From Rhodospirillaceae bacterium (GTDB lineage Bacteria; Pseudomonadota; Alphaproteobacteria; UBA828), in the NCBI GenBank assembly GCA_018666805.1, contig JABIXB010000009.1, forward strand, positions 1-32,844: a stretch of 32,844 nt of DNA. The letters run 5' to 3'. The notes under the pieces were generated by a model that saw nothing but the letters and a program-made list of their open reading frames with translations, did not search any database and was not told the DNA's origin. Positions 1,680 through 26,313 of the stretch are shown in pieces (within the stretch, counting starts at the first letter, position 1; each line of letters begins with the position of its first letter). The position numbers and the translations under genes are program-made.

Positions 1680-3170
1680 ATGACCGAAATTCGCTGCAAG
1701 TGCTATTTTCGAGTGTCTTTCGGCGGCGGCGTACCGCCATTTACCGTCATGATCGACACGATGGACGAGATCGACGCGGCGCGGAGTGCCATAGAAGGCG
1801 GGGCAAACAACGTCAATGGCAAGGTGATCGTCCGGCGCGCCGGATATAACGGAAATTGGAAATTTCATTTCGATCCCGCCAGCGTGTTTTTTTCGACCCG
1901 GGCGGGCGGTACGATACCAACCAAGGTTGAAAACAATCCTCATTCCTACAGCGGCCAGAAAATACGTTTCGGCAACGCGACCGCCATTGCCGAGATCAGA
2001 CCCGGCCTTGGCAAGACCCAGGCTTTCACGGCGCGCGGTTCCCAGCCGGCGCCGTGGAACGTGCGCCTGGTGCGGGCGCGCCAGGCGATGACGCAATTGC
2101 GCGCCCGCCATGGCGGTGAAAATTTCTCCTGGGGCACGGTCAAGGTCGGCCACATCGACACCGGCTATGTGCCGCACGCGGTGTTCGGTGCATGGACGGC
2201 TGGCACGGCAAACGCGGCAAACAGAAAATCCAATTCCACCATATTGTGGCAGCAGGGGCGGGATTTTCTCGACGGGGATGATGACAATCCGGAGGATACG
2301 ATGGATTACCGGGCCATGCTGCCGCCGCACTTTCCGGCGCATGGGTTACGCACCGGCAGCGTGCTGGCCGGGCGCAAGCTGGGTGTGGCGCCGGGATTGC
2401 CGTTGGTGCCGTATCGTGCGCTGCGAACCACCGTTCTCGTTTGGGATGGCGCCAAGACACGCGTGGCGCAGGCGATCAATGCGGCAAACACCCAGAATTG
2501 CCCGGTAATTAATATGAGTCTGGGCGGGCTGACCGCTTCGCGTGCTATGGGCGAAGCCGTCGACAAGGCTTATGACAAGGGCATTATCATCTGCGCTGCG
2601 GCCGGCCAGGCGACCGATCAGGTAACCTATCCGGGGCGCTATTTCCGAACCATCGGCGTCGGCGGCGTGCAGCCGAAGGGCATGAAAAGGCCGAGCGAAG
2701 GCGCGGCGCTTAGCAATATCGAACTTGAAATGTATGACGAGGTGCAACTCGGCGGCACGCAGTTTATCGCCGGCGACGATCAATATGTCGACATCTGGGC
2801 GCCCTCGGCCTGCATCGACCGGGCGGTGGCAAAAGAGAATGGCGCGCTTGACCGTATCTCCACCGATGGCGGCGGCGACGGCACCTCCTACGGCACGGTG
2901 CATGTGGCGGCGGCGGCGGCGATGTGGCTGCGCTGGCATGGCGCCGATCTGGATACGGCCTATGATAACGGCTGGAAGCGTGTCGAGGCGTTCCGCAAGA
3001 TCGTGCATCGAATCGGCTGCCGGGTGCTGGAACTTCCCGCCGATCCAAGCCGGGCGCCGCGCACGTTGCGCAATCCTTACATACTCGACATCAAGGCCGT
3101 CCTCGACGAGCCGTTGCCGCAAATCATCGACGATGATCGTAAAAGTCTGGCCACCGATCAGCGCTTCTAG
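1680..3170 (+). CDS. Subtilisin-like S8 family serine peptidase
   Basis: Predicted subtilase of 496 residues. The catalytic triad is readable: Asp160 in GHIDTG, His221 in HGLRTGSVLAG and Ser403 in GTSYGT. VINMSLGG (276-283) is the usual strand before the oxyanion region. The residue that normally forms the oxyanion hole, Asn in AAGN, is Gln310 here (AAAGQ). The first ~120 residues form a separate domain I do not recognise. There is no signal peptide, propeptide cleavage motif or membrane segment, which suggests a cytoplasmic protein. The start is supported by GGAAGGGG seven bases or so upstream of the ATG. It ends 6 bp from the convergent DUF1272 gene, so it is probably a single-gene transcript. 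Substrate and role are unknown. Confidence 0.85.
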   Translation: MTEIRCKCYFRVSFGGGVPPFTVMIDTMDEIDAARSAIEGGANNVNGKVIVRRAGYNGNWKFHFDPASVFFSTRAGGTIPTKVENNPHSYSGQKIRFGNATAIAEIRPGLGKTQAFTARGSQPAPWNVRLVRARQAMTQLRARHGGENFSWGTVKVGHIDTGYVPHAVFGAWTAGTANAANRKSNSTILWQQGRDFLDGDDDNPEDTMDYRAMLPPHFPAHGLRTGSVLAGRKLGVAPGLPLVPYRALRTTVLVWDGAKTRVAQAINAANTQNCPVINMSLGGLTASRAMGEAVDKAYDKGIIICAAAGQATDQVTYPGRYFRTIGVGGVQPKGMKRPSEGAALSNIELEMYDEVQLGGTQFIAGDDQYVDIWAPSACIDRAVAKENGALDRISTDGGGDGTSYGTVHVAAAAAMWLRWHGADLDTAYDNGWKRVEAFRKIVHRIGCRVLELPADPSRAPRTLRNPYILDIKAVLDEPLPQIIDDDRKSLATDQRF

Positions 3171-3176
3171 AGGCTT

Positions 3177-3491
3177 TCATCGCGCTGCGGGCGGAATGTC
3201 GCCGACGCGGGCGACCAGGGTGCGCTGATCGTCCGGCTTGACCGGGTGATGCTTCTTTTCTGTGCTTGCAGGCTGGGCGCTGAGGCTGACGCCGGCCCGC
3301 CATTCTTCGGCTGGGCGCACCGGGCGCGGTACGAAGCCGCCGCCGCAATTGGGGCAGACATTCTCCAGCACCGTCTCGACGCAACTGCGGCAAAAGGTGC
3401 ATTCATAGGAGCAAATTCTTGCCTCCGATGAGGCTGGCGGCAGGCCAGTGGCGCAATTCTCGCAGATCGGCCGGAGTTCAAGCATGCTCAT
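3177..3491 (-). CDS. DUF1272 family cysteine-rich protein
   Basis: A 104-residue protein with the DUF1272 pattern: LELRPICENC at the N-terminus, then ARICSYECTFC and VCPNCGGGFVPRP. Eight cysteines (10, 13, 27, 31, 34, 37, 46, 49) are spaced as two probable zinc-binding knuckles. The function of this family is not established. The chosen ATG at 3491 overlaps the stop of the upstream YciI-like gene as ATGA and has GAGGG just upstream, so the two genes are probably translationally coupled. A second ATG two codons later (3485) is possible. The C-terminal ~40 residues are charged and not conserved in the family as far as I know. Confidence 0.85.
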   Translation of the reverse strand: MSMLELRPICENCATGLPPASSEARICSYECTFCRSCVETVLENVCPNCGGGFVPRPVRPAEEWRAGVSLSAQPASTEKKHHPVKPDDQRTLVARVGDIPPAAR

Positions 3492-3796
3492 CCGCCCTCT
3501 TCGGGCCGGCCCAGGACCCAGGACCACGGGCGGATTTGCACGTCGCTGAAGAGATCGGCCTGGCGGTACGGGTCGCCCGCCGCGAAGGCTTCCGCCGCGC
3601 CGAGAGCGGGCGCCTCGACGATCAACATCGTGCCGTTCATGGTCTCGCCGTCTGCCGCCAGGGTCGGGCCGCCGTGAATGACGCTGACATCCGGATGGGC
3701 TGCGGCGTCGCGCAGATAGGCGCGGTGCGCGTCGCGCGCCTCGAGCCGGACGTTGAGATGATCGGCGCGGTCGGTGGCGAAAATAACAAATTGCAT
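3488..3796 (-). CDS. YciI-like protein
   Basis: A 102-residue protein matching the YciI / dimeric alpha-beta barrel fold. It starts MQFVIFATDRAD, has R-x-x-R-x-A-H-R-A-Y-L in the first helix, contains GGP and NGTMLIVEA, and ends with the typical DPYRQADLF...IRPW pattern. Family members are small dimeric proteins with a conserved His/Asp pair; most have no proven reaction, though some act as dehydrochlorinases or ring-cleavage helpers. It is the first gene of a two-gene unit with the DUF1272 gene and is divergent from the hydratase gene at 3861, leaving a 64-bp shared promoter region. Function is not assigned. Confidence 0.85.
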   Translation of the reverse strand: MQFVIFATDRADHLNVRLEARDAHRAYLRDAAAHPDVSVIHGGPTLAADGETMNGTMLIVEAPALGAAEAFAAGDPYRQADLFSDVQIRPWSWVLGRPEEGG

Positions 3797-3860
3797 GGGC
3801 TTCTCCGCAGCGTGGTTGGCGCGGCTTGTCCGCCGCCTGTTGGTGCGCTAAGAGTGCTTT

Positions 3861-4649
3861 ATGGGAGATGCACAAGCAAGGGAAGCAGCAGCGCTAATCT
3901 GGCAAAATTGGCAGGGCCGGAGCCGCATTGACGGCCTGCCGGAAGCCTGCCGCCCGCAATCATTGTCCGAGGGCTATCAGGCCCAGGCCGCGCTCGCCGA
4001 ACTGAGTGGTTGGCAGCCGGTGGGGTGGAAAATCGCCGCCACCAGCATTGCCGGGCAAAAGCATATCGGCGTCGATGGGCCGCTCGCCGGGCGCTTGCTC
4101 GATGGCAAGCTGCACGATGATGGCGCCGAATTGCCGGCGGCGCATTTGCACATGGCGGTGGTCGAGGCGGAATTCGTCTTTCGCCTGGCAAGCGATTTAC
4201 CGGCACGCGGGCGCGACTACACGCCAGAGGATGTCGTCGCGGCAACGGCGGCGCTCCATCTCGGGCTGGAAATACCGGATTCGCGCTTCGAGGATTTCAC
4301 CATCGTCGGCGCGCCGCAGCTGATCGCCGATAATGCCTGTACCGAATTTTTTGTCCTCGGGCCGGCGGTGCCGGAGAGCTGGCGCGAGATCGACCTTGCC
4401 GCGCACAGCGCTGCTCTCACCATCAATGGCACGGTGGTGGCGGAAGGCATCGGCGCCAATGTGCTCGGCGATCCGCGCATCGCGCTCGCCTGGCTCGCCA
4501 ATGACCGCATACTGCACGGTGCGCCGCTCTTGGCTGGTGAGATTATCACCACCGGTACCTGCATCGTGCCGGCGGCGATTGCGCCCGGCGATGACGTGCT
4601 GGCGGATTTCGGCGCGCTCGGCCGCGTTTCCTTGAAATTTTCGGAGTAG
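3861..4649 (+). CDS. 2-keto-4-pentenoate hydratase-like protein (FAH superfamily)
   Basis: A 262-residue protein resembling MhpD/DmpE hydratases and 4-oxalocrotonate decarboxylase. These enzymes act on short 2-oxo-alkenoates in meta-cleavage pathways using Mg2+ or Mn2+. Visible hallmarks are GWKIAATS near residues 54-61, the metal-binding acidic pair in VEAEFVFRL, an LGLEIPDSRF segment, and the C-terminal LxAGEIITTGTC motif. No ring-cleavage dioxygenase or other aromatic pathway gene is in the window, so the true substrate is open. It is the first gene of a run with the oxidoreductase and methyltransferase genes, separated by a few bases or overlaps, and is probably co-transcribed with them. 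Confidence 0.82.
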   Translation: MGDAQAREAAALIWQNWQGRSRIDGLPEACRPQSLSEGYQAQAALAELSGWQPVGWKIAATSIAGQKHIGVDGPLAGRLLDGKLHDDGAELPAAHLHMAVVEAEFVFRLASDLPARGRDYTPEDVVAATAALHLGLEIPDSRFEDFTIVGAPQLIADNACTEFFVLGPAVPESWREIDLAAHSAALTINGTVVAEGIGANVLGDPRIALAWLANDRILHGAPLLAGEIITTGTCIVPAAIAPGDDVLADFGALGRVSLKFSE

Positions 4650-4655
4650 AGCGTG

Positions 4656-5666
4656 ATGGCAACGGATGTGAACAGGCAGATCGTTTTGGCGGCGCGGCCC
4701 GACGGCAACCCCAAGGAAACGGATTTCACCCTGCGCGAGGCAGCCCTGCCGGAGCCGCGCGCCGGTCAAATTCTGGTGCGCACCATTTGGCTTTCGCTCG
4801 ATCCCTATATGCGCCTCAGGATTGGCAACAACGAACAATATTATCCCGCCGTGCCGCTCGGCGATGTGGTGGTCGGCGGCGCGATCGGCCAAGTGATGGA
4901 AAGCCGCCATGGCGGCTTTGCCGAGGGTGATTATGTCGAGGCCTATAGCGGCTGGCAGGATTACGCCGTGCTTGGCGGCGGTGAGGCGCGAAAAGTCGAC
5001 CCCACGCTCGGGCCGCTGTCGACGGCGCTTGGCGTGCTCGGCATGCCGGGCCTGACCGCCTATCTCGGCCTGATCGATGTCGGCAGGCCGGAGCCCGGCG
5101 ATACGGTGGTGGTCTCGGCTGCGTCGGGCGCGGTCGGCGCGATCGTTGGCCAGGTGGCGAAAATCGCCGGTTGCCGCGCGGTCGGTATTGCCGGCTCGGA
5201 AACGAAGAACGCTTACCTCACAGACGAGCTCGGCTTCAATGCGGCGATCAATTACAAAACCGGTGATATCGGTGCGGCGCTGGACCGCGCCTGCCCGGAC
5301 GGTATCAATGTTTATTTCGAGAATGTCGGTGGTGCTGTCAGCGAAGCGGTCTATCCGCGCTTGGCGGCGCGCGCGCGCGTTGTCGTTTGCGGCGGTGTTT
5401 CGCAATACAATCTGAAATCACCGCAAACCACGCTGAGCAATTTGCAGAATATCCTCTTCACCGAGGCGCAAGTCGGCGGCTTCAATATCTTTTCCTACGC
5501 AGCGCGCTATGACGATGGCCGCAAACGCCTCGCCGGTTGGCTGGCCGAGGGGCGGCTCAAATACAAAGAAGATGTGGTCGAGGGGCTGGAGAACGCGCCA
5601 GGCGCTTTCCTGCGTTTTTTCGACGGCGAAACTTTCGGCAAACTGTTGGTAAGGGTAGCACAATGA
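4656..5666 (+). CDS. NADP-dependent oxidoreductase, zinc-independent MDR family
   Basis: A 336-residue medium-chain reductase of the CurA / prostaglandin reductase / leukotriene B4 dehydrogenase type, which reduces the double bond of alpha,beta-unsaturated ketones or aldehydes with NADPH. Evidence: PEPRAGQILVRTIWLSLDPYMR near the N-terminus (seen in part as LSLDPYMR), GMPGLTAYLGL, and the nucleotide-binding loop AASGAVGAIVGQVAK. Structural zinc cysteines are absent, as expected. A GTG sits directly before the chosen ATG; GGAG upstream suits either. Only a few bases separate it from the hydratase gene, and its stop overlaps the next start as ATGA, so it is translationally coupled to the methyltransferase. 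The natural substrate is unknown. Confidence 0.88.
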   Translation: MATDVNRQIVLAARPDGNPKETDFTLREAALPEPRAGQILVRTIWLSLDPYMRLRIGNNEQYYPAVPLGDVVVGGAIGQVMESRHGGFAEGDYVEAYSGWQDYAVLGGGEARKVDPTLGPLSTALGVLGMPGLTAYLGLIDVGRPEPGDTVVVSAASGAVGAIVGQVAKIAGCRAVGIAGSETKNAYLTDELGFNAAINYKTGDIGAALDRACPDGINVYFENVGGAVSEAVYPRLAARARVVVCGGVSQYNLKSPQTTLSNLQNILFTEAQVGGFNIFSYAARYDDGRKRLAGWLAEGRLKYKEDVVEGLENAPGAFLRFFDGETFGKLLVRVAQ

Positions 5667-6481
5667 ACGAGACGAAAATGGCGCGCTTTGTTGGCTCGAT
5701 CCCGGAAACCTATGACCGTGAACTGGGGCCGTTCCTGTTTGAGTATTATGCCGAGGATTTGGCCGCCCGCCTGAAAGCGCCGGCCGGTGGGCGCGTGCTG
5801 GAAATTGCCTGCGGCACCGGCATCTCGACCGAATATGCGCGCAATGTGCTCGAAGCCGGTATTTCGATCACGGCCACCGACCTCAACCCGCCGATGCTCG
5901 AACATGCCGAGGCAAATCGCAGCCATCTCGCCGGGGTGACGTTCAGCCAGGCGGATGCTCAGGCGCTACCCTTCGGCGACGGCCAGTTCGACGCCCTGTT
6001 CTGCCAGTTCGGCGTCATGTTTCTGCCCGACAAACCGCTCGGGTTTTCCGAATTTTTCCGCGTCCTCAAGCCGGGCGGAACGCTCGCCCTTAATGTGTGG
6101 GATTCGCTCGAGCGCAATCCGGTTGTTGGCTTGGCGTTTGAGACGATTTGCAGCTTTTTCGAATCCGACCCACCGCTATTTTTGTCGATACCTTTTGGCT
6201 GGAACGATCATGCTGTGATCCGCGCTCATCTCGAAGATGCCGGCTTCGGTGATGTCGCCATTGAAGCCGTACCGCATGGCGGCAGCCACCCGTCCGCCGC
6301 GGGCCTCGCCAAGGGGATGGTGCAGGGCAATCCAACAATGCTTGAAATCGAGGAGCGCGGCACCGCCTCGGCGGATGAAGTGGTCGTCACCCTAGCCGAA
6401 AAAATACGCGCAACCTACGGCGATAATCCTGTTCGTTCGCCGCTACAGGCGATCGTCGCTACAGCCCGCAAGCCTGAATAA
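5663..6481 (+). CDS. Class I SAM-dependent methyltransferase
   Basis: A 272-residue methyltransferase of the Methyltransf_11/UbiE-like type. SAM-binding motif I is VLEIACGTGIST (about residues 45-56), with the acidic strand ITATDLN after it, FSQADAQALPF as motif II/III and FRVLKPGGTLALNVW as the post-motif. The ATG overlaps the stop of the oxidoreductase gene (ATGA), which fixes the start; a longer in-frame extension upstream would run deep inside that gene and is not credible. The methyl acceptor cannot be predicted; the C-terminal half resembles small-molecule methyltransferases. It is the last gene of the unit and faces the korB gene tail to tail. Confidence 0.88.
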   Translation: MNETKMARFVGSIPETYDRELGPFLFEYYAEDLAARLKAPAGGRVLEIACGTGISTEYARNVLEAGISITATDLNPPMLEHAEANRSHLAGVTFSQADAQALPFGDGQFDALFCQFGVMFLPDKPLGFSEFFRVLKPGGTLALNVWDSLERNPVVGLAFETICSFFESDPPLFLSIPFGWNDHAVIRAHLEDAGFGDVAIEAVPHGGSHPSAAGLAKGMVQGNPTMLEIEERGTASADEVVVTLAEKIRATYGDNPVRSPLQAIVATARKPE

Positions 6482-17326: not shown

Positions 17327-18754
17327 TCAGCTGCGCCCGTAGCGGTCCTCAATGCGGACGATATCGTCTTCGCCGAGATAATCGCCGCTTTGCACCTCGA
17401 CCACATGGAGCGGCTCGCTGCCCGGATTTTCGAGCCGGTGGTGCACGCCGGTGGCGATGAAGGTCGATTGATTGGCATTGAGCTCGAGCGTCTCCGCATC
17501 GCGCGTGACCCGGGCGCGACCCGCCACCACCACCCAATGCTCGGCGCGTTTGTTATGATATTGCAGCGAAATACCGGCGCCGGGATTGACTGTGAGCAGC
17601 TTGACCTGAAAGCCTGGCCCGTGACGGAGACCCTCGAACGCGCCCCACGGCCGCACCACGCGGGTGTGTGACACGGCCTCGCCGCGGTCTTGTGCTGATA
17701 GAATAGCAACCACATCCTTGACCGCCTCGGCCTTATCCTTGGGCGCGATCAGGATGGCATCCTTGGTTGCCACCACGGCGATATCCTCAAGGCCAAGTGC
17801 GGCGATCAGCGGACCGTCGCTGCGGATATAGGATGATTTGCAGTCGAGCGCGATGACGTCGCCTTCGATTAAATTATCGCCGTCACCGCGCGCCGCCACT
17901 TGCCACAGTGCGCGCCACGAGCCGACATCGCTCCAGCCGACATTGATCGGCATCACCGCCGCCTGCTCGCAATCCTCCATCACCGCATAATCGATCGAAT
18001 CGCCGGTCATGGCGGCGAACGGGGCCTCGTCGAGGCGGAGGAAATCCTGCTCGGCGCTCGCCCGGCCGAGCGCGGCGCGGCAGGCGCTTACCATGTCCGG
18101 CTGCAGCCGCTCCAATTCGCTGAGATAGTGCGCGGCGGAAAACAGAAACATGCCACTGTTCCAGAGATATCCGCCCGCCGCCAAATATTCCTGCGCCCGC
18201 GCCGCGTCGGGCTTTTCGACGAAGCGGGTGACCTTGTGGCAAGGCCCGCCGGCAATGGCATCGCCTTCAAGAATATAACCATAGCCGGTTTCCGGCGCGT
18301 CCGGCGTGATGCCGAAGGTGACGAGCGAGCCGTCGGCCGCAAGCGCCGCCGCTTGGTGAATGGCGGCGGCGAGGCCGCCGGGGTCGGTGATGACATGATC
18401 GGCCGGCGAGATCAGCATCAGCGCATCGCTGTCCTGCGCCGTCAGCATCAGTGCGGCGATTGCCGCCGCCGGCGCGGTATTGCGCCCGACCGGCTCGAGC
18501 ACGATGCGCGCCGGTTCGATATCGATTTGGCGCATCTGCTCGGCCAGGATAAAGCGGTGCGCTTCATTGCAAAGAAAGAGCGGCGCCGCGAAACCCGGGC
18601 CGGAGAACCGCTTGGCCGTATCCTGCACCATGGTGTTGTCGCCGATCAGGCGCAGCAATTGCTTGGGATATTCGGCACGCGACAACGGCCAAAGCCGTGT
18701 GCCGGAACCGCCGCACAGAATCACCGGGTGAATGTTAGCCACTTTTGCTGCCAT
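17327..18754 (-). CDS. manC: Mannose-1-phosphate guanylyltransferase / mannose-6-phosphate isomerase
   Basis: Bifunctional type II PMI/GMP enzyme (475 residues) that supplies GDP-mannose for polysaccharides. The nucleotidyltransferase signature GGSGTRLWPLSRAEYPKQLL is near residues 14-33, with VEKPD as the second active-site motif. The C-terminal cupin (from about 350) has the metal-binding pattern QYHNKRAEHW of the isomerase half. The ATG at 18754 overlaps the stop of the preceding membrane-protein gene as TGATG, so the GTG one codon earlier is less likely. It is the last gene of the leftward four-gene unit and ties that unit to surface polysaccharide synthesis. Length is normal for the family. 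Confidence 0.93.
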   Translation of the reverse strand: MAAKVANIHPVILCGGSGTRLWPLSRAEYPKQLLRLIGDNTMVQDTAKRFSGPGFAAPLFLCNEAHRFILAEQMRQIDIEPARIVLEPVGRNTAPAAAIAALMLTAQDSDALMLISPADHVITDPGGLAAAIHQAAALAADGSLVTFGITPDAPETGYGYILEGDAIAGGPCHKVTRFVEKPDAARAQEYLAAGGYLWNSGMFLFSAAHYLSELERLQPDMVSACRAALGRASAEQDFLRLDEAPFAAMTGDSIDYAVMEDCEQAAVMPINVGWSDVGSWRALWQVAARGDGDNLIEGDVIALDCKSSYIRSDGPLIAALGLEDIAVVATKDAILIAPKDKAEAVKDVVAILSAQDRGEAVSHTRVVRPWGAFEGLRHGPGFQVKLLTVNPGAGISLQYHNKRAEHWVVVAGRARVTRDAETLELNANQSTFIATGVHHRLENPGSEPLHVVEVQSGDYLGEDDIVRIEDRYGRS

Positions 18755-19215
18755 CACATGCCGCCCACTTCGGATTGGATGCTGTCCCAGACGCCGAGCG
18801 AAAAGCCGGGCGCGACATTCAGGCCAAAGGCCGATTTGAGCACGTAGAGGGCGCCGAAGACGAAACTCACCAGCAACAGCAGGACCAGCGTTAGGAACAG
18901 AAAGTTGCCGACCGTGGCAAACGGATGGGAATGGCGCTCGGCGCGGTTGCGGCTGCGTGGCCGTTTGTCGATGCCGGTGAGAAAGACGAAATAATAGGTC
19001 CGTGCCAAAACCGGTAAGGTAAAGCGCAGATCAATGGCGTGGCGGCCCCAGGTCTTAACGCCGTAGGCGCGGATGATGACGCGGAGCTGCTCATCGCTGA
19101 AGCTCTCGGCAATATTGGCCGGCATGGATTCGGCAAATTTGCGGACAAAGTGATGATCCGCCTTGGACGGCGTGGTGCCGGGCGGGGCGGTAGTGGGTTT
19201 CGTATCCAAGCTCAA
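18754..19215 (-). CDS. Small single-pass membrane protein, function unknown
   Basis: A 153-residue protein I cannot assign. The first ~20 residues are Pro/Thr-rich, then a soluble region contains PANIAESFSDEQLRVIIRAYG and WGRHAIDLRFTLPVLARTYYFVFLTG (about 56-81). A basic patch RPRSRNRAER precedes one strong membrane segment at about 102-126, and a ~27-residue tail follows. By the positive-inside rule the N-terminal part is cytoplasmic. The start is TTG at 19215, overlapping the upstream stop as TTGA, with GGAAG nearby; its own stop overlaps manC as TGATG. This double overlap implies tightly coupled translation with the nucleotidyltransferase and manC, so it probably serves the same pathway. 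Confidence 0.75.
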   Translation of the reverse strand: MSLDTKPTTAPPGTTPSKADHHFVRKFAESMPANIAESFSDEQLRVIIRAYGVKTWGRHAIDLRFTLPVLARTYYFVFLTGIDKRPRSRNRAERHSHPFATVGNFLFLTLVLLLLVSFVFGALYVLKSAFGLNVAPGFSLGVWDSIQSEVGGM

Positions 19216-20321
19216 GCTTCCGCTTTTTCTATCGGCAGGCCGGGTAGATCATGCGTGCGCCGGATCACCAGGCCGGCCAGCCGTTCGCCGTTACGCAGCA
19301 CCAAGTGTAGGGGCGAATCATAGAGGCGCATTTCAAGCCTCAGTTTAAGGCCGTCCGGCAGGCGCGGCAACGCCAACGAGCGCATGTTGGCGGCGATGGT
19401 TTGCACAAGAGTGTGACTCGGGGCGCCGAGGCTGCGCCCGGCGAACAGCCCCTCGGCGCCCGCAATGCCGAATTCGGCCAAGAGGTCGCGGTAAAAAATG
19501 GTGCGCCGGACGCTGCGCCCGCGCCGCGCCATCGCCTCGACCAAGGACCAGTCAGGCGGCTGCCGCGCGAGCAAAAAAGCCGCATCGAACAACGCCTTGA
19601 GGCCGCGCGGCTCGTAAAAATCCCGGAACGCATGGAGCGCTAGAATGAGGAAGCTGTGCTCGGCACTGGGCACGCTGAGCGTGCCGTTCTCGGTATCGAC
19701 GCGCCGGGCGCTGGCGAACAGCTCTGGTGTCGGCACGCCACGGCTGGCCGGATAGTCGATTACCAGGCGGTGGAAATCGACGTAGAAATCGCCGCTTTCG
19801 CGCGGTGTCACCGGCGCGAAACTGGCTCTTGTCAGCGCGCCCCACGGGCGGTCCGATGCGGGGTCGACCACGCTGACATAATCCTCGGCTTTCAAATGGG
19901 CGCAAAGCGCGGGCAGGTCGGATTGCCGTACCAGGATATCGGCATCGGGCAGGAGGCGAAGATAGGGCGCGTCATAATATGCATAGGCGGTGGCGAGCCC
20001 CTTGATGGCGAGACAGGGAATCTGCTTGTCTTCGAGCGCCGCCACCAGCTCGAGCATGCCGCGTCGCGCGTGGCGCGACGCAACGGCGCTGATTTGCGCG
20101 CGGCGCAATAGTTCATCGCGCCCGCCGGAGCCGTACGTCGCCTTATCCTGGCCGAGCGCATCAAGGCAGGCCAAGGCGAGCGGTGCGCCGATCAGTTGTG
20201 TGGCAAGGGCGGCGCGTTCGGGTGTCGAAAATAATTCGCCAATAAATGTTTGCAGGAAAGCGCCGGGCAGGCCGGTCAGCGCATCGGAGCCAAGCGCATT
20301 GCGCGCGTCCCCATCAGACAC
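19212..20321 (-). CDS. Uncharacterised nucleotidyltransferase (NTP_transf_5-like)
   Basis: About 369 residues with the nucleotidyltransferase-fold pattern of the PF14907-type family. The core is LAIKGLATAYAYYD followed by LRLLPDADILV, giving a conserved Lys (~107), Arg (~122) and a probable metal-binding Asp-x-Asp (~126/128). Later FYVDFHRLV matches the third acidic position of the fold. The reaction is unknown; relatives often occur with PqqD-like and HprK-like genes, as here. GTG at 20321 is preferred because AGGG precedes it and it lies 8 bases after the upstream stop; TTG at 20351 would overlap the proteinase gene by 22 bases. Its stop overlaps the next gene as TTGA. Confidence 0.8.
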   Translation of the reverse strand: MSDGDARNALGSDALTGLPGAFLQTFIGELFSTPERAALATQLIGAPLALACLDALGQDKATYGSGGRDELLRRAQISAVASRHARRGMLELVAALEDKQIPCLAIKGLATAYAYYDAPYLRLLPDADILVRQSDLPALCAHLKAEDYVSVVDPASDRPWGALTRASFAPVTPRESGDFYVDFHRLVIDYPASRGVPTPELFASARRVDTENGTLSVPSAEHSFLILALHAFRDFYEPRGLKALFDAAFLLARQPPDWSLVEAMARRGRSVRRTIFYRDLLAEFGIAGAEGLFAGRSLGAPSHTLVQTIAANMRSLALPRLPDGLKLRLEMRLYDSPLHLVLRNGERLAGLVIRRTHDLPGLPIEKAEA

Positions 20322-20329
20322 GATTCGCC

Positions 20330-21043
20330 CTATCCCCGATGCAGCCACCAAGATTTCTCGTTGAGCGAAAAGAACGGCTTATAGTGGTGGATCTTCTTGC
20401 TCGGCAGAATCTGTTTGATCTGATTGTCGAGAATGTAGGGCTTGTTTTTGATATAGACCGCGAGGATGCCGTGCGCGACGCCGAGATTTTCGTCCTGCAC
20501 GACGACGATGCGCATCTTATCGAGAGGAAAGCCAATCGCGCGCAGCGACATATATTTGGCGATGGCGTAATCCTCGCAATCGCCATTTTGCGATTTAAAC
20601 TGGCTCGGCGTCGCCCAGTAATCATCGACGCCCCAATTGCGAATGTCGGTGATGTATTTCACGCCATTCAGATAATTGTTGATCGCCTTGACCTTCTTGA
20701 CGGTTTTCTTGCCTTCGAGGGAATTGAGAAAGGCTTGCCATTCGGCCAAGTGGCAGGTGTTGAAGGTGGCGCTGGTGCAATCGCCTTCGCCAAGCGCGCC
20801 GGCCTTGAAATAGCGCTTCAACATGCCGGTCCATTTGGGGAACGGTTTGAGGTTTTTGTTGCGAATTTCCTTGGTGCCAAAGAGCTTGCCGGCCTTGCTG
20901 GCGGCCTCGACATCGCTCATCGCGCCCGAGACGGCAACCACCACCGTCGCCGCGATCAGCACCGCCAAAAAGCGGCCGGCCAAAAGTTTGATACCCGGAA
21001 TGTTCACAAGCATCCTTAGAACGTCCGTTAAATAGGCGGACAT
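20330..21043 (-). CDS. Transglutaminase-like cysteine proteinase (BTLCP, LapG-like)
   Basis: A 237-residue protein of the bacterial transglutaminase-like cysteine proteinase family (PF06035), which includes the periplasmic protease LapG that cuts surface adhesins. The triad is Cys156 in NGDCEDYAIAKY, His191 in GVAHGILAV and Asp206 in YILDNQ. A hydrophobic signal region lies at about 20-42. The ATG at 21043 overlaps TATAAT (TATAATG), so if that is the -10 box the real start is downstream: ATG at 21013 or GTG at 21007, the latter with AAGGA in front. It heads the leftward unit and is divergent from the sensor gene. No LapA-like adhesin is in the window, so the target is unknown. Confidence 0.85.
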   Translation of the reverse strand: MSAYLTDVLRMLVNIPGIKLLAGRFLAVLIAATVVVAVSGAMSDVEAASKAGKLFGTKEIRNKNLKPFPKWTGMLKRYFKAGALGEGDCTSATFNTCHLAEWQAFLNSLEGKKTVKKVKAINNYLNGVKYITDIRNWGVDDYWATPSQFKSQNGDCEDYAIAKYMSLRAIGFPLDKMRIVVVQDENLGVAHGILAVYIKNKPYILDNQIKQILPSKKIHHYKPFFSLNEKSWWLHRG

Positions 21044-21173: not shown

Positions 21174-21452
21174 ATGTCAGAAATCGATCTGTTTGAAAGC
21201 AAAACCGAGAACCGCCGGCTGGCGGCGAATGTGCGCCTTTTGGCGGGCGTTGTGGTGCTCGGGATCGCCATTGCGGTTGGCGTGATATTCGTCTTCCGCT
21301 TTGCCGATGCGCAATATGAGCGCGATTTGCGCGACTGGCAGGTGCGTCTCGGCATCGTCGCGGAAAGCCGCCTGGAGGCGGTCAATGAATGGCTGGAAAC
21401 ACAATATGCCGGCCTGCAGGGCCTGGCTGACAACACCGCGCTTAAGCTCTAA
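21174..21452 (+). pseudogene. 5' fragment of a membrane sensor gene (TM1), cut by an in-frame stop
   Basis: The first 92 codons of a sensor. They encode a short cytoplasmic start, one membrane segment (about residues 20-43) and the beginning of a periplasmic domain ending GLADNTALKL. A TAA at 21450-21452 then stops the frame, and the very next codon, ATG, continues in the same frame with the rest of the Cache-like domain. A single base change would restore one 718-codon gene. GAGGGTAGG precedes the ATG at 21174. Whether this is a real nonsense mutation, a sequencing error, or a stop-start pair allowing reinitiation cannot be told from the sequence. Confidence 0.7.
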
Positions 21453-23330
21453 ATGACCGAACTTAGCCTCGCCGAAGGCGATATTGAGGATGTGACGGAC
21501 GAGCCGGCGCAGCGCACTTACTTGCGCAATCTTCTCGTCGCCACCGCTGATCGCACCGGGTTTATCGGCCCAGTGCTCGGCCCCGAGGTGAACGCCAATG
21601 TCGAGCGCATCGGCCTCGCCGGCCTGGCTTTGGCCGATGCCAATGGGCAAATCCTCGTCGCCACGCCGGAAATGCCGCCGGGCGATGAAAAACTGCGCGC
21701 TTTGTTGCGCGAGACGCCGCAGGGCGAGCGCGGCATGCGCGATATTTATGCCGGCGCCGCTGGCCATCCCAGCATCGCCTTTATTGCGCCGATCTTCATG
21801 CTGCAAAGAGAGGGCGATCCGGCGGCGCAGATCGGCCATGTGATCGGCATCAAGCTGGTCGAGGAAGAGCTTTATGACCGCCTCATTCAGCCCGGCACGA
21901 CCGAGGCAAGCGCCGAGGCGCTGCTCGTGCGCGAGACCCCCTCGACGGTCGAATATCTCTCGCCGCAGGCCGATGGCACGGCGCCGTTGAAGCGCAGCCT
22001 GGCGCTCGATACCACCGACCTCGCCTCGGCCTATGCGATCGAAAAGCCGGGCGGCTTCGGCCTCAAGCAGGATTACCGCGGCGACCGCGAAGTGCTGATT
22101 ACCTCGCGCGCCGTTTCGCTGGCGCCGTGGACGCTGCTTTACAAGATCGACCGCGATGAGGCGATGGCGGAATCGGATTCCAGGCGCGACGCCATCATCA
22201 TCACTTTCATCCTGGTGATTGCCGTCGTCGGCACGGCGCTGTTGGCCGTTTGGTACATGGCTTCCTCGGCGCGCGCCACTGATATGGTGGCCAATCTGAA
22301 AGATCTCGCGCTGCGTTTTGAGAGGCAGCAGAATTTCCTCCGTCTCGTTACCGACAGCCAGCCCAACGAGATCGCCATTATCGATGAAAGCTCGACCTAC
22401 CGCTTTGGCAACAAGAAGGTGGCGGACCATGCCGGCATCCAGACCCATGAAGTGCGCGGCAAGACCCTGGCGGCGATGGTCGGCCCGGTGCGGGCTAAAG
22501 TCGTTGAGAAGCTTAACCGCGAAGCCATGGCGGAGGGGGAAACGATCACCGATGTCCACCGCGAGGTGGACCCCGAGGACATAGACACTTTCCATGTCAT
22601 CCAGTCGGAGCATATCCCGTTAAGCGAAACGCTCGGCATGCCGCCTGGCGTTCTTCTGGTCTCGGAGGATATCACCGAGGCAATAAGGGAACGCGAGAAG
22701 CGCGAGCGGACCATGCGCGAGCTGGTCAACACGCTGGTGACGGTGGTCGATCGGCGCGATCCTTACTCGGCCCATCATTCGACCCGCACGGCGGAAGTGG
22801 CGCGCGCCATCGCCATCGATATGGACCTTGAGGAAAATCTGGTCGAGACGGCCGAAATTGCCGCCTCGCTGATGAATTTGGGCAAGATTCTGGTGCCGCA
22901 GGAATTGCTCACCGCCGATCGCAAATTGACCACCGAAGAGCGCATGCTGATTCGCAATTCCACCCTGACCAGCGCCGATCTGCTCGAAGGCATCGATTTT
23001 GGCGGGCCGGTGGCGGAGACCCTCGGCCAGATGCTGGAATTCGTCGATGGCTCGGGCGTGCCCAACGGTCTTGCCGGCGACGATATTCTCAAATCAGCGC
23101 AAATCTGCGCCGTCGCCAATACCTTTGTCGGCCTGATCAGCCCGCGCTCTTACCGCGAAGGCATGGATTTCATCAAGGCGGTCGATATTTTACAGGGCGA
23201 TGTCGATCATCAATTCTCGCGCGGTGTGGTCGCAGCCCTGGTCAGCCATCTTGAGAATAAGGGCGGCAAGGCCGAGGGGGAGCATTTCCGTGTGCTTGAC
23301 GAGGCGGCGGATACGGATCGCGACGCCTAG
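21453..23330 (+). CDS. Cache-PAS-HD-GYP-like sensor protein, 3' part, degenerate active site
   Basis: 625 residues read from the ATG directly after the in-frame stop. Order: rest of a periplasmic Cache-like domain (1-235), membrane segment (about 247-269), PAS-like domain (about 295-410) and HD-GYP-like domain (about 421-600). The HD-GYP fold is recognisable from LVTVVDRRDPYSAHHSTRTAEVARA, LGKILVP, EERMLIR and DGSGVPNGL. Key residues are lost: the HD pair is Met474-Asn475, the HHE before DGSG is MLEF, and GYP is GVP. It is therefore unlikely to hydrolyse c-di-GMP and may be a binding or scaffold protein. Without the 5' fragment it lacks its first membrane anchor. It lies upstream of the phosphatase and PqqD/HprK-like genes. 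Confidence 0.75.
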   Translation: MTELSLAEGDIEDVTDEPAQRTYLRNLLVATADRTGFIGPVLGPEVNANVERIGLAGLALADANGQILVATPEMPPGDEKLRALLRETPQGERGMRDIYAGAAGHPSIAFIAPIFMLQREGDPAAQIGHVIGIKLVEEELYDRLIQPGTTEASAEALLVRETPSTVEYLSPQADGTAPLKRSLALDTTDLASAYAIEKPGGFGLKQDYRGDREVLITSRAVSLAPWTLLYKIDRDEAMAESDSRRDAIIITFILVIAVVGTALLAVWYMASSARATDMVANLKDLALRFERQQNFLRLVTDSQPNEIAIIDESSTYRFGNKKVADHAGIQTHEVRGKTLAAMVGPVRAKVVEKLNREAMAEGETITDVHREVDPEDIDTFHVIQSEHIPLSETLGMPPGVLLVSEDITEAIREREKRERTMRELVNTLVTVVDRRDPYSAHHSTRTAEVARAIAIDMDLEENLVETAEIAASLMNLGKILVPQELLTADRKLTTEERMLIRNSTLTSADLLEGIDFGGPVAETLGQMLEFVDGSGVPNGLAGDDILKSAQICAVANTFVGLISPRSYREGMDFIKAVDILQGDVDHQFSRGVVAALVSHLENKGGKAEGEHFRVLDEAADTDRDA

Positions 23331-23372
23331 GTCCGGCTTGCACGGGCGCGCCGGTGCGCTAGATTTTAGGTG

Positions 23373-24140
23373 ATGTTTGGATTGTTCGAAAAGCGCCGCA
23401 AACGCGGCCGGGAAAACGCCGCCGCGCCGCGCGTGGCGGAGGATATGCGTGTCTATGCCATTGGCGACGTGCATGGCCGGCTCGATCTCCTGAAAAAGCT
23501 AAGCGGCAAAATTTCCGAGGATCGTGCTGCTAATCCGGCGGCGCGCTACAAGCTGATTTTCCTTGGCGATTATGTCGACCGTGGAAGTCAGAGCCGCGAA
23601 CTACTCGATCTTTTGTCAGAAGGCCCAATCGACGGTTTCGAGACGATTTATCTCTCCGGCAATCATGAGGAATTTCTGCTGCGTTTCCTCAGCGACACAT
23701 CTGATGCTTCGTCTTGGCTCTATTATGGTGGCGCCAATACCTTGATCAGCTACGGCATCTCGGCCTCGCCGCTGCAAAACGACCCCGAGCGCCTGATCGC
23801 CATTCAGCAAAAATTCCGCGATGTCCTGCCGGAGAGCCACTTGGCGTTTTTGCGCAACCTCGAGACCAGCCATGTCGAGGGCGATTATTTCTTCACCCAT
23901 GCCGGCGTCCGCCCCGGCGTCGCGCTCGACGATCAATCGCCCGATGACCTGTTGTGGATTCGCGATGAATTTCTCGCCTCGAAAGCCGATCACGGCCGTG
24001 TCATTGTGCACGGTCACTCTGTGCGCATGCGGCCCGAGCTTCTCGCCAACCGCATTGGTATCGATACCGGCGCCTATGATACCGGCGTTCTAACCTGCCT
24101 GGTGCTTCAGGGAGAGGGCCAGTGGCTACTGCAAACCTGA
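23373..24140 (+). CDS. PPP-family metallophosphatase (serine/threonine phosphatase type)
   Basis: A 255-residue phosphatase with all three metal-site motifs of the PPP family: GDVHGRLD (about 32-39), GDYVDRG (about 66-72) and GNHEEF (about 96-101), plus HAGV and VHGHS further on. Such enzymes use two metal ions to remove phosphate from Ser/Thr, sometimes from diadenosine polyphosphates (ApaH-like) or other substrates. GTG directly precedes the chosen ATG. It sits 42 bp after the sensor gene and just before the glycosyltransferase-PqqD and HprK-like genes, so it is a candidate to reverse the phosphorylation made by that kinase-like protein. This pairing is inference from position. Confidence 0.88.
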   Translation: MFGLFEKRRKRGRENAAAPRVAEDMRVYAIGDVHGRLDLLKKLSGKISEDRAANPAARYKLIFLGDYVDRGSQSRELLDLLSEGPIDGFETIYLSGNHEEFLLRFLSDTSDASSWLYYGGANTLISYGISASPLQNDPERLIAIQQKFRDVLPESHLAFLRNLETSHVEGDYFFTHAGVRPGVALDDQSPDDLLWIRDEFLASKADHGRVIVHGHSVRMRPELLANRIGIDTGAYDTGVLTCLVLQGEGQWLLQT

Positions 24141-24156: not shown

Positions 24157-25455
24157 GTGACCGCGACCGGCGACACCCCGCTCGTTTGTATCTTGAGCGA
24201 CAGCGATGGGCCGCGCTTGGCCGCCGCCATTCAATCGGCGCAAAGTTTTGACCTCACGGTGCTGGTTGGCGCTTGCGCCAATAAGCCGGGCGGCGTCGCG
24301 GCCGTCGATATCGATTGGCAGGATGATTTTGCCGCCGCGCGCAATCAGCTTGCTGATATCGCACTCGAACAATATGCCGATCATCCCTATCTGCTGTGGC
24401 TCGACAGCGACGAAGAATTGATCTCCTGGCCGGCGCATGATTGGGGCGCGGAAACGGCGCCCTGGTTTTCGCTGCAAATTGAAGACACCGAGGCGCTTAC
24501 GCCGCGCCCGACCACCCGCCTGCAACGCAATAATGGTTCGCTGCGCTGGCATCATGCCATTCACGAAATGCTCTATTCCGTCACGCCGCCACAAGCCCCA
24601 ACCGCCGAACCTCTGGGTGGTGCGCTGCTGCGCCATCATGGCTATGCCGACGATCAGACGATTGCCGCCAAACTCAGGCGCAATCAGGCCATCGTTGCGG
24701 CGGAGCGCCGCTGCGGCTTTGACTATCTCTATCTCTGGGTCGAAGAGGCGCGCTTTGCCGAGGCTTTCGGCAAGGGCGCGACCATGGCTTGGACCAAGGT
24801 ATTCAACCACCCGGAAGCAGCGCCGCGCCATCCCGGTGCTATCGATCTTAGGGTCGAGGCGGCGGAATCTCTTTGCGCCTTCGGCAACACGGCGCCGGCG
24901 CTGCAATTGCTGGCGGAAAATCCACGGATCTTGGGTCTGCAATTGGCCGTCCTCGGCGCCGAGCAGCGGGAAAGTGGGGAGGTCGATGCGGCGCGGCTCG
25001 ATTTTCTCAGCCATTGCGCCCGCGCCGGCCCCGGCGATTGGCGCTATAGTTATCCGCGCGCCCTGTTGGGCGCCTCGCGCGAGGAAATTCTGGCGCTGGT
25101 CAAAGAAGTCGCGGATGAGAATGATCAGTCCGCCACAAGCGATAAGATCAAGCGAAGTGATGGGGAGCAAAAGATGACGGGCCGGTTCACGCAGAGCGAC
25201 GATTTCGACGCCGAAACTCTCGGCAACGATTTGGTTCTCATGAACAACAAGACGCGCGAGGTGCTGACCCTCAACCCGACGGCGCGCGCGGTCTGGGATC
25301 TGCTTGAGGGTGGGCTCAGCCGGGACGAGATCGGTGAAGCCTTTGGGCAAGCGTTTCCCGATATCGATAGCGTCATCCTTGGCAAAGACATCAACCGCAC
25401 CTTGGAGCATCTTCTCGCCAGCGGCCTGATTTCGCGCGACGGGGACGCGGCTTAA
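24157..25455 (+). CDS. Glycosyltransferase family 2-like protein fused to a PqqD-like domain
   Basis: 432 residues in two parts. Residues 1-339 resemble a GT-A glycosyltransferase: DDFAAARNQL (56-65), WLDSDEEL with the metal-binding Asp-x-Asp (83-85), and RWHHAIHEML, typical of GT2 proteins related to LPS or exopolysaccharide synthesis. Residues 340-432 are a PqqD-like fold: LVLMNNKTREVLTLNPTARAVWDLLEGGLS, a winged-helix domain that in RiPP pathways binds precursor peptides. GTG at 24157 begins the frame but has no good ribosome-binding site. A very strong one lies inside the gene before ATG 25174, so PqqD may also be made alone. Linker residues 318-339 are charged and low in complexity. Confidence 0.78.
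   Translation: MTATGDTPLVCILSDSDGPRLAAAIQSAQSFDLTVLVGACANKPGGVAAVDIDWQDDFAAARNQLADIALEQYADHPYLLWLDSDEELISWPAHDWGAETAPWFSLQIEDTEALTPRPTTRLQRNNGSLRWHHAIHEMLYSVTPPQAPTAEPLGGALLRHHGYADDQTIAAKLRRNQAIVAAERRCGFDYLYLWVEEARFAEAFGKGATMAWTKVFNHPEAAPRHPGAIDLRVEAAESLCAFGNTAPALQLLAENPRILGLQLAVLGAEQRESGEVDAARLDFLSHCARAGPGDWRYSYPRALLGASREEILALVKEVADENDQSATSDKIKRSDGEQKMTGRFTQSDDFDAETLGNDLVLMNNKTREVLTLNPTARAVWDLLEGGLSRDEIGEAFGQAFPDIDSVILGKDINRTLEHLLASGLISRDGDAA
25162..25176 (+). promoter_or_regulatory. Internal ribosome-binding site and start for a free PqqD-like protein
   Basis: GGGGAG (25162-25167) stands 6 bases before an in-frame ATG (25174-25176). Initiation there would give a 93-residue PqqD-like protein, close to the length of stand-alone PqqD family members. 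A TGA in another frame lies at 25158-25160, just where a separate upstream gene would be expected to end. Confidence 0.6.
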
Positions 25456-25464
25456 AAGCTGTTT

Positions 25465-26313
25465 ATGCCGGTAAAAACCTACCGCTTCGCCTGGCAAAGC
25501 CACGGTGCGCATGTTCGCACCCGGGACACGGATTTGATTGCCACGCTGGGCCGCTTTCTCGGTCTCGAGCCAGTGCCGGAGGAAGTGCTGCCGGCCGGCG
25601 AAGCGGATAATCTCATCACCATCGAGGAAACCGGCGGCGAGTTCATCATCGCCACGCATGATTGGCAATTGAGCGCCGGCAACCGTGAGCAATTGCTGTT
25701 CGCCGCCCTTGAGGCGATTGGGCAGATCTTCATCTATGATTTTCCCGGCGCGATATTTCATGCCGGGGCTTTTCTCGCGGGTAAGGGCGCGGTCGCTTTT
25801 TTCGGCGCGCCGCAAAGCGGTAAAAGCACGCTCGGCTTTGCTGCCTGGCGGCGCGGCCTGGCGCTTTTCGGCGATGACAGAATTGCGCTTATGGACGAAG
25901 GCCGGCGGGTTCAGGCATTTCCGAAATGCGTCAAACTCCGCCTGCCGGCGCTCGGCGCGCATCCGCCCGGAGCTGAAAACCTAACCTCGGAAATGGTGGT
26001 TGAGGCGGATTTGGGCCATGAAATCCGCTTCATTCTGGCCCGCACTCTGCCCGGATTTTGCCCCTACGACGCCGTTGCGGAGGTGGGTGTCGTGGTCGAG
26101 CTTAAGCGCGGTGTTGAGGGCGGCGCGACGCTCGCCCCCCTTGCGGCGGAAGATGCGGTTGAAGCCGCTCTTCAGAATGTCGTATCGCCAGAATATGAAC
26201 CGATGGAAATTGTCCGCCTGATGAAACGCCAGGCTGAGAACGGAAGATTATTCCGCCTTACGGTCGGGCCGGGCGGTACCGAACACGCCCTCGATCTGTT
26301 GCTGGAGGTGTAA
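25465..26313 (+). CDS. HprK-related kinase (HPr-rel-A type)
   Basis: A 282-residue protein related to the C-terminal kinase domain of HPr kinase/phosphorylase. The P-loop is GAPQSGKST (114-122), preceded by FHAGAFLAGKGAVAFF (98-113) and followed by FGDDRIAL (135-142), matching the acidic catalytic pair of HprK. The first ~85 residues are not the HprK N-terminal domain and include a LAPGEADNLITIEE-like strand region. HprK phosphorylates a serine of HPr; here neither HPr nor PTS genes are near, so the substrate is unknown and may be another cluster protein or a sugar/peptide. It starts 9 bp after the PqqD domain. PqqD-like plus HprK-like gene pairs are a recognised but unexplained association. 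Confidence 0.82.
   Translation: MPVKTYRFAWQSHGAHVRTRDTDLIATLGRFLGLEPVPEEVLPAGEADNLITIEETGGEFIIATHDWQLSAGNREQLLFAALEAIGQIFIYDFPGAIFHAGAFLAGKGAVAFFGAPQSGKSTLGFAAWRRGLALFGDDRIALMDEGRRVQAFPKCVKLRLPALGAHPPGAENLTSEMVVEADLGHEIRFILARTLPGFCPYDAVAEVGVVVELKRGVEGGATLAPLAAEDAVEAALQNVVSPEYEPMEIVRLMKRQAENGRLFRLTVGPGGTEHALDLLLEV

Follow-up and report, generated by a model that had tools for sequence, protein, structure and literature searches.

A single open reading frame in the window, the whole stretch of 32,844 nucleotides from Rhodospirillaceae contig JABIXB010000009.1 that was analyzed here, joins a putative GT2-type glycosyltransferase (GT) to a PqqD domain. The fusion is genuine and is conserved in related genomes, and it probably gives rise to two proteins, the fused GT–PqqD protein and a free PqqD, within a putative peptide-modification module.

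Structure of the fusion gene

The frame extends from GTG to TAA and encodes 432 amino acids without a stop, with the GT2-like and PqqD-like domains sharing it as originally predicted. Its parts are as follows.

24157–25455, + strand: GT2-type glycosyltransferase–PqqD fusion gene (putative), 432 amino acids, GTG start; open fusion also in genomes G001, G003, G004, and G007
24157–24726, + strand: GT-A-like catalytic part (putative), amino acids 1–190; PDB profile match to GmaR, motifs common to homologues
24727–25098, + strand: segment following the GT-A part, amino acids 191–314; conserved, dN/dS of about 0.15–0.3, helices suggested by a low-confidence model
25099–25173, + strand: linker, amino acids 315–339; 22–28 codons in homologues, stop-free, unconserved in sequence, dN about equal to dS
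25162–25167, + strand: internal Shine-Dalgarno (SD)-like sequence GGGGAG, 6 nt before the ATG at 25174
25174–25455, + strand: PqqD/RRE domain with its own in-frame ATG, amino acids 340–432; PF05402, predicted free product of 93 amino acids

Residues 359 to 425 of the window protein matched the PqqD family PF05402 with an E value of 1.2e-11 and a score of 45.2 bits, versus a curated Pfam cutoff of 23.4, and all five fusion homologues matched the same family. This part of the protein is predicted to be a leader-peptide-binding RRE. The original division of the protein into a GT (residues 1–339) and a PqqD part (340–432) stands with regard to the limit of PqqD; the GT side was refined to a GT-A part of about residues 1–190, a helical segment (191–314), and the linker (315–339). 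Codon 340 of the fusion is an in-frame ATG (25174–25176), and the predicted GGGGAG ends 6 nt upstream of it, with its GGAG at 25164–25167. The out-of-frame TGA expected just before this ATG is located at 25158–25160, and a further TGA at 25175–25177 overlaps the ATG as ATGA and closes the frame 24437–25177.

A Pfam search with residues 1–190 of the window protein gave no match, and Glycos_transf_2 was matched weakly, below the threshold, by three of the five homologues (best E = 0.057). A profile built from the five homologues matched GmaR in the PDB with an E value of 2.6e-11 and SunS weakly, with an E value of 0.31. GmaR functions in flagellin glycosylation and SunS in bacteriocin peptide glycosylation. 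The motifs W-x-D-F-A-A-A-R-N, L-W-x-D-S-D-E-E, and H-x-x-H-E are retained in the GT part of the homologues. A search for an acidic D-x-D-type motif pointed to D83-S84-D85-E86, which is invariant in this part, to be read together with the subthreshold Pfam GT2 matches and a poor structure model: the AlphaFold model obtained from the five sequences had a pLDDT of 45, too low for use. The NH2-terminal part may be described as a putative GT2-type peptide or protein glycosyltransferase resembling GmaR and SunS.

Distribution and origin of the fusion

The uninterrupted fusion was also found in three genomes of the same genus, G001, G003, and G004 (71, 63, and 60% identity to the window protein, respectively), and in G007 of another genus in the same family (50%). 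Five genomes including that of the window thus carry it, at 50–71% identity to the window protein and with differing linkers. Given the identical open fusion in four other genomes, an assembly frameshift in the window contig is excluded, and the comparison indicates that the fusion is real. The five linkers contain no stops (product of shuffle probabilities, 0.01) and differ in length by whole codons only. Profile searches of 385 sampled genomes from the class and 398 from the phylum revealed no other fused GT–PqqD, and a scan of genome contigs returned only the G003 contig already found. Two genomes were not scored: G008, which is incomplete, has PqqD at a contig edge, and in G002, the contig breaks inside the kinase gene.

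In G183, from another family of the class, the GT and PqqD genes lie side by side in different frames, and their stop and start codons overlap in the sequence GTGA; in G247, PqqD is a discrete 93-amino-acid gene on the strand opposite to the GT. Because GT and PqqD are separate genes in these outgroups, the fusion was probably derived within its family. The outgroups fit the original suggestion that two once separate genes were joined by a small indel, although the event that joined them is not visible. The G183 GT carries an independent one-base frameshift in mid-gene (L022, about 9010; G183:C3:106947), and the GT of G764 is also broken. A G247 GT of the same type (L021:15-1658, +) is fused not to PqqD but to a PrmA-like methyltransferase (PF06325, E = 4.4e-39).

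Conservation of the internal start site

The in-frame internal ATG is kept in all five fusions, each with GGAG 5–6 nt upstream, so that the original prediction of an internal ribosome-binding site extends to every fused homologue; the outcome named beforehand as refuting it, homologous fusions lacking such a site, was thus not what the comparison gave. The background for GGAG at a spacing of 4–9 nt is 1.9–5.0% of positions in the same genes; given that the five fused sequences are few and related to one another, these frequencies are not to be read as probabilities. The normal GT start lacks GGAG in four of the five genomes. At the domain boundary of five HprK–PqqD fusions from other loci, which served as controls, no SD sequence with a start codon was found.

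Both GT and PqqD are under purifying selection, with dN much below dS; the linker between them aligns poorly, with dN about equal to dS in pairs for which both could be estimated. Among the last 30 nt before the ATG, six columns are invariant in the four same-genus genomes: GGAG (–10 to –7), the only run of such columns, and single bases at –28 and –1. Across genera, GGAG and ATG are retained with an SD spacing of 5 instead of 6. The residues encoded at the internal SD differ among the five fusions (DGEQK, DGETE, EEGG, WESG, and SGDA), and the constraint therefore acts on the nucleic acid rather than on the protein. By SD duplex energy alone, in a wide window, the internal site ranks in the best 0.7–15% of positions, a moderate result. 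The motif, spacing, and column tests are more telling than duplex energy, and the loss of similarity around the site is a stronger argument than the frequencies. Collectively, the internal start looks selected. PF05402 occurs once per fused genome, and free PqqD could therefore come only from the internal start. The idea of two products from one gene thus gains comparative support from an SD sequence and an ATG kept in a neutrally evolving linker, with the free protein itself a predicted product.

Kinase and nucleotidyltransferase genes near the fusion

Three genes near the fusion are listed below.

23370–24140, + strand: metallophosphoesterase, upstream of the fusion (PF00149, E = 4.6e-16)
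25465–26313, + strand: HprK-like kinase, 282 amino acids, P-loop GAPQSGKST (TIGR04352, E = 5.9e-4, below cutoff; PDB HPr(Ser) kinase, E = 0.071)
19212–20351, – strand: NTP_transf_5 nucleotidyltransferase in a divergent operon, co-occurring with PqqD (PF14907, E = 5.4e-28)

The kinase gene follows the fusion after a gap of 9 nt. Discrete, adjacent HprK-like kinase and PqqD genes are present in G247, and the two are fused in G762, G036, a second G247 locus, and plasmids of Shinella and Paracoccus. Plasmid searches with the window kinase itself gave no match. The plasmid fusions (L148 and L149) are annotated only as "PqqD family protein" and lie beside genes for an S8 peptidase and an ECF sigma factor. 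An S8 peptidase gene is also present in the window, at 1680–3170, 22 kb from the fusion. NTP_transf_5 (PF14907) was detected in the fused genomes except G001, as well as in G183 and G247; in G001, blastp recovered the COOH-terminal part of the protein on the same contig. G005, G006, and G011 lack both NTP_transf_5 and PqqD.

The divergent operon (17327–21043, –) is tightly overlapping and encodes a LapG-type cysteine protease (PF06035, 20330–21043), NTP_transf_5, a protein of 153 amino acids with one transmembrane segment, and a ManC-like mannose-1-phosphate guanylyltransferase. An ORF at 20246–21019 (+) was discarded, given that the opposite strand encodes the LapG-type protease. A PAS/HD-GYP gene (21174–23330, +) is split by an in-frame TAA at 21450–21452, directly before an ATG at 21453. 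The G003 homologue has TAC at this position and a single frame on the scale of 700 amino acids, and the TAA is either a recent nonsense change or an assembly error.

Candidate precursor peptides

A short ORF beside the G247 kinase gene encodes the peptide MSKQRRRELLKRLAVVAVSGYIVPTAILMYPRNANAAFCDQHPSDPKCI (L021:1747-1935, –). Relatives were detected in G764 (E = 1.5e-5), G183 (2.8e-4), and, weakly, G003 (0.04), all of which hold this GT or its fusion, with the peptide gene not beside the GT; the 11 genomes searched had been picked for having the GT, and the co-occurrence can be taken only as a hint. In G762 and Shinella, the HprK–PqqD genes are immediately preceded by genes for similar peptides whose tails are rich in Ser and Gly. 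A profile of these six peptides detected further peptides, absent from its training set, whose genes directly precede HprK–PqqD genes in G036 (E = 2.9e-7) and at the second G247 locus (4.6e-7), where a further copy was detected with an E value of 6e-4. The peptides share RR-x-x-L/I-x-R-L/M, a hydrophobic stretch, and Y-x-A/V-P, followed by a variable tail with abundant Ser, Gly, Cys, or Pro. They constitute a candidate family of precursor peptides, linked to HprK–PqqD, with a twin-arginine-like leader and a variable Ser/Gly/Cys-rich tail, and with the following members.

L021:1747-1935, – strand: candidate precursor peptide
L131:7693-7851, – strand: candidate precursor peptide
L130:5367-5582, + strand: candidate precursor peptide
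L129:4684-4833, – strand: candidate precursor peptide
L128, about 5619-6389, + strand: candidate precursor peptide
L148:4535-4795, + strand: candidate precursor peptide
L020:9823-10458, – strand: candidate precursor peptide
L113:2479-2919 and 3284-3937, + strand: candidate precursor peptides

Comparison with NCBIfam assigned the peptides to no family and gave only weak matches to twin-arginine signals, and part of their similarity may therefore be export-signal likeness. A scan with the six-peptide profile gave no significant match in 0.98 Mb (25%) of the genome from which the window comes, the gaps around the window operon contained no convincing small precursor ORF, and a plasmid search with the G003 peptide gave no match. 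A match of G000:C122 to the G247 peptide (E = 0.27) was rejected because it is a long frame that lacks the motif. The interval preceding the HprK–PqqD gene of Paracoccus marcusii (L149, about 4380-4900) contains a peptide-like sequence that is not annotated, with its leader in one frame and its Ser/Gly-rich tail in another.

Interpretation and alternative explanations

According to the explanation that we favor, initiation at GTG 24157 would yield a GT2-type peptide or protein glycosyltransferase with a COOH-terminal PqqD/RRE that presents the leader peptide to the enzyme, whereas initiation at the internal ATG 25174, driven by GGGGAG, would yield the free 93-amino-acid PqqD. The latter would serve the HprK-like kinase encoded directly downstream; elsewhere, PqqD occurs paired with or fused to a kinase of this type. 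Together, GT, PqqD, the HprK-like kinase, and NTP_transf_5 would form a module that most likely modifies small exported peptides with tails rich in Ser, Gly, and Cys. A more specific proposal, which we put forward only tentatively, is that of a shared adaptor, with one PqqD domain acting in cis on the GT and in trans for the HprK-like kinase. A single gene would supply both forms through internal initiation, and the system would represent a class of peptide modification not yet described, in which peptides with twin-arginine-like leaders and Ser/Gly/Cys-rich tails are both phosphorylated and glycosylated.

That the internal SD and ATG are little-used relics of a once separate pqqD start, with only the fusion being of consequence, seems unlikely. 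Separate genes in the outgroups would lead one to expect such a relic, the protein itself could also preserve the Met, and the known sequences are just five and related; however, GGAG and ATG stay in place where the similarity of the surrounding linker is gone, and they persist across genera despite the altered spacing. We are equally doubtful of the converse, that free PqqD is the functional product, its start also supplying ribosomes to the kinase gene that lies 9 nt beyond, and that the fused form arises incidentally as the GT frame runs on into PqqD. The strong internal SD, compared with the mostly weak SDs of GT and kinase, the pairing of PqqD with the kinase elsewhere, and the linker without protein-level constraint all suit this explanation. 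The frame is nevertheless open in five genomes, with whole-codon length changes, and, with GT under purifying selection, any translation of GT necessarily produces the fusion. An assembly or sequencing frameshift joining two genes, as the original prediction had also envisaged, might be suspected from a genome fragmented into 317 contigs and from the premature TAA at 21450 in a nearby gene, but it is refuted by the open fusion with different linkers in four other assemblies, and we regard it as highly improbable.

Known RREs are either stand-alone proteins or domains of fusion proteins. If our favored reading of two products is true, a gene retaining the two forms would show that fusion can be gained without loss of the free adaptor for a second enzyme, and annotation of fused RREs could then hide free products. 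The candidate precursor family beside HprK–PqqD genes renders an unexplored phospho- or glycopeptide system directly testable.

Comparison with known systems

The window protein resembles SunS (glycocins) and GmaR (flagellin) in its GT-A domain at the E values given above, and differs from both in its COOH-terminal PqqD domain. The window resembles the HPr-rel-A system (NCBIfam TIGR04352/TIGR04353) in combining a PqqD chaperone with an HprK-related kinase, by weak matches: the window kinase scored 19 of 200 bits against TIGR04352, far below the curated cutoff and outside membership of the system, and for TIGR04353 no match was reported for the window protein, the best among homologues having an E value of 8.7e-6.

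In lasso peptide biosynthesis, Ser is phosphorylated by a homologue of HPr kinase, after which a nucleotidyltransferase attaches hexoses to the phosphate (PMC8498205). The systems for paeninodin and pseudomycoidin, phosphorylated or phosphoglycosylated lasso peptides, share with the module a PqqD-type chaperone, an HPr kinase homologue, and a nucleotidyltransferase (PMC8498205), whereas the module has an added GT2 enzyme, different peptides, and no PF13471. This lasso protease domain had no match in 12 genomes including G000, and a lasso peptide cluster was therefore rejected; a Pfam scan of 30 window ORFs gave no match to an asparagine-synthetase-like cyclase. Given that no lasso protease domain was found, the likeness is one of analogy, not membership.

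Cas11 is produced from cas8 or cas10 by in-frame internal initiation that gives rise to a COOH-terminal subunit (PMC11899642). As with the window gene, one gene has two products, predicted in the window, and an internal ATG with an SD-like sequence, and a small subunit is, or in the window would be, required alongside the large protein; in contrast, Cas11 belongs to the CRISPR machinery, and its short product is proven (PMC11899642).

RRE–glycosyltransferase fusions were reported in 2020 and 2025 as unexplained architectures, by RRE-Finder and its update, and combine a PqqD-like RRE with a glycosyltransferase as in the window (PMC7470986, PMC12710340). Those entries describe no internal start, whereas the window fusion has one and adjoins genes for an HprK-like kinase and NTP_transf_5 (PMC7470986, PMC12710340). 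Our literature search, with subscription journals mostly outside its coverage, retrieved no paper combining an RRE–GT fusion with internal initiation and none on an HprK–PqqD peptide module. RRE–glycosyltransferase fusions as such are thus already known, and the new part is the conserved internal start together with the module.
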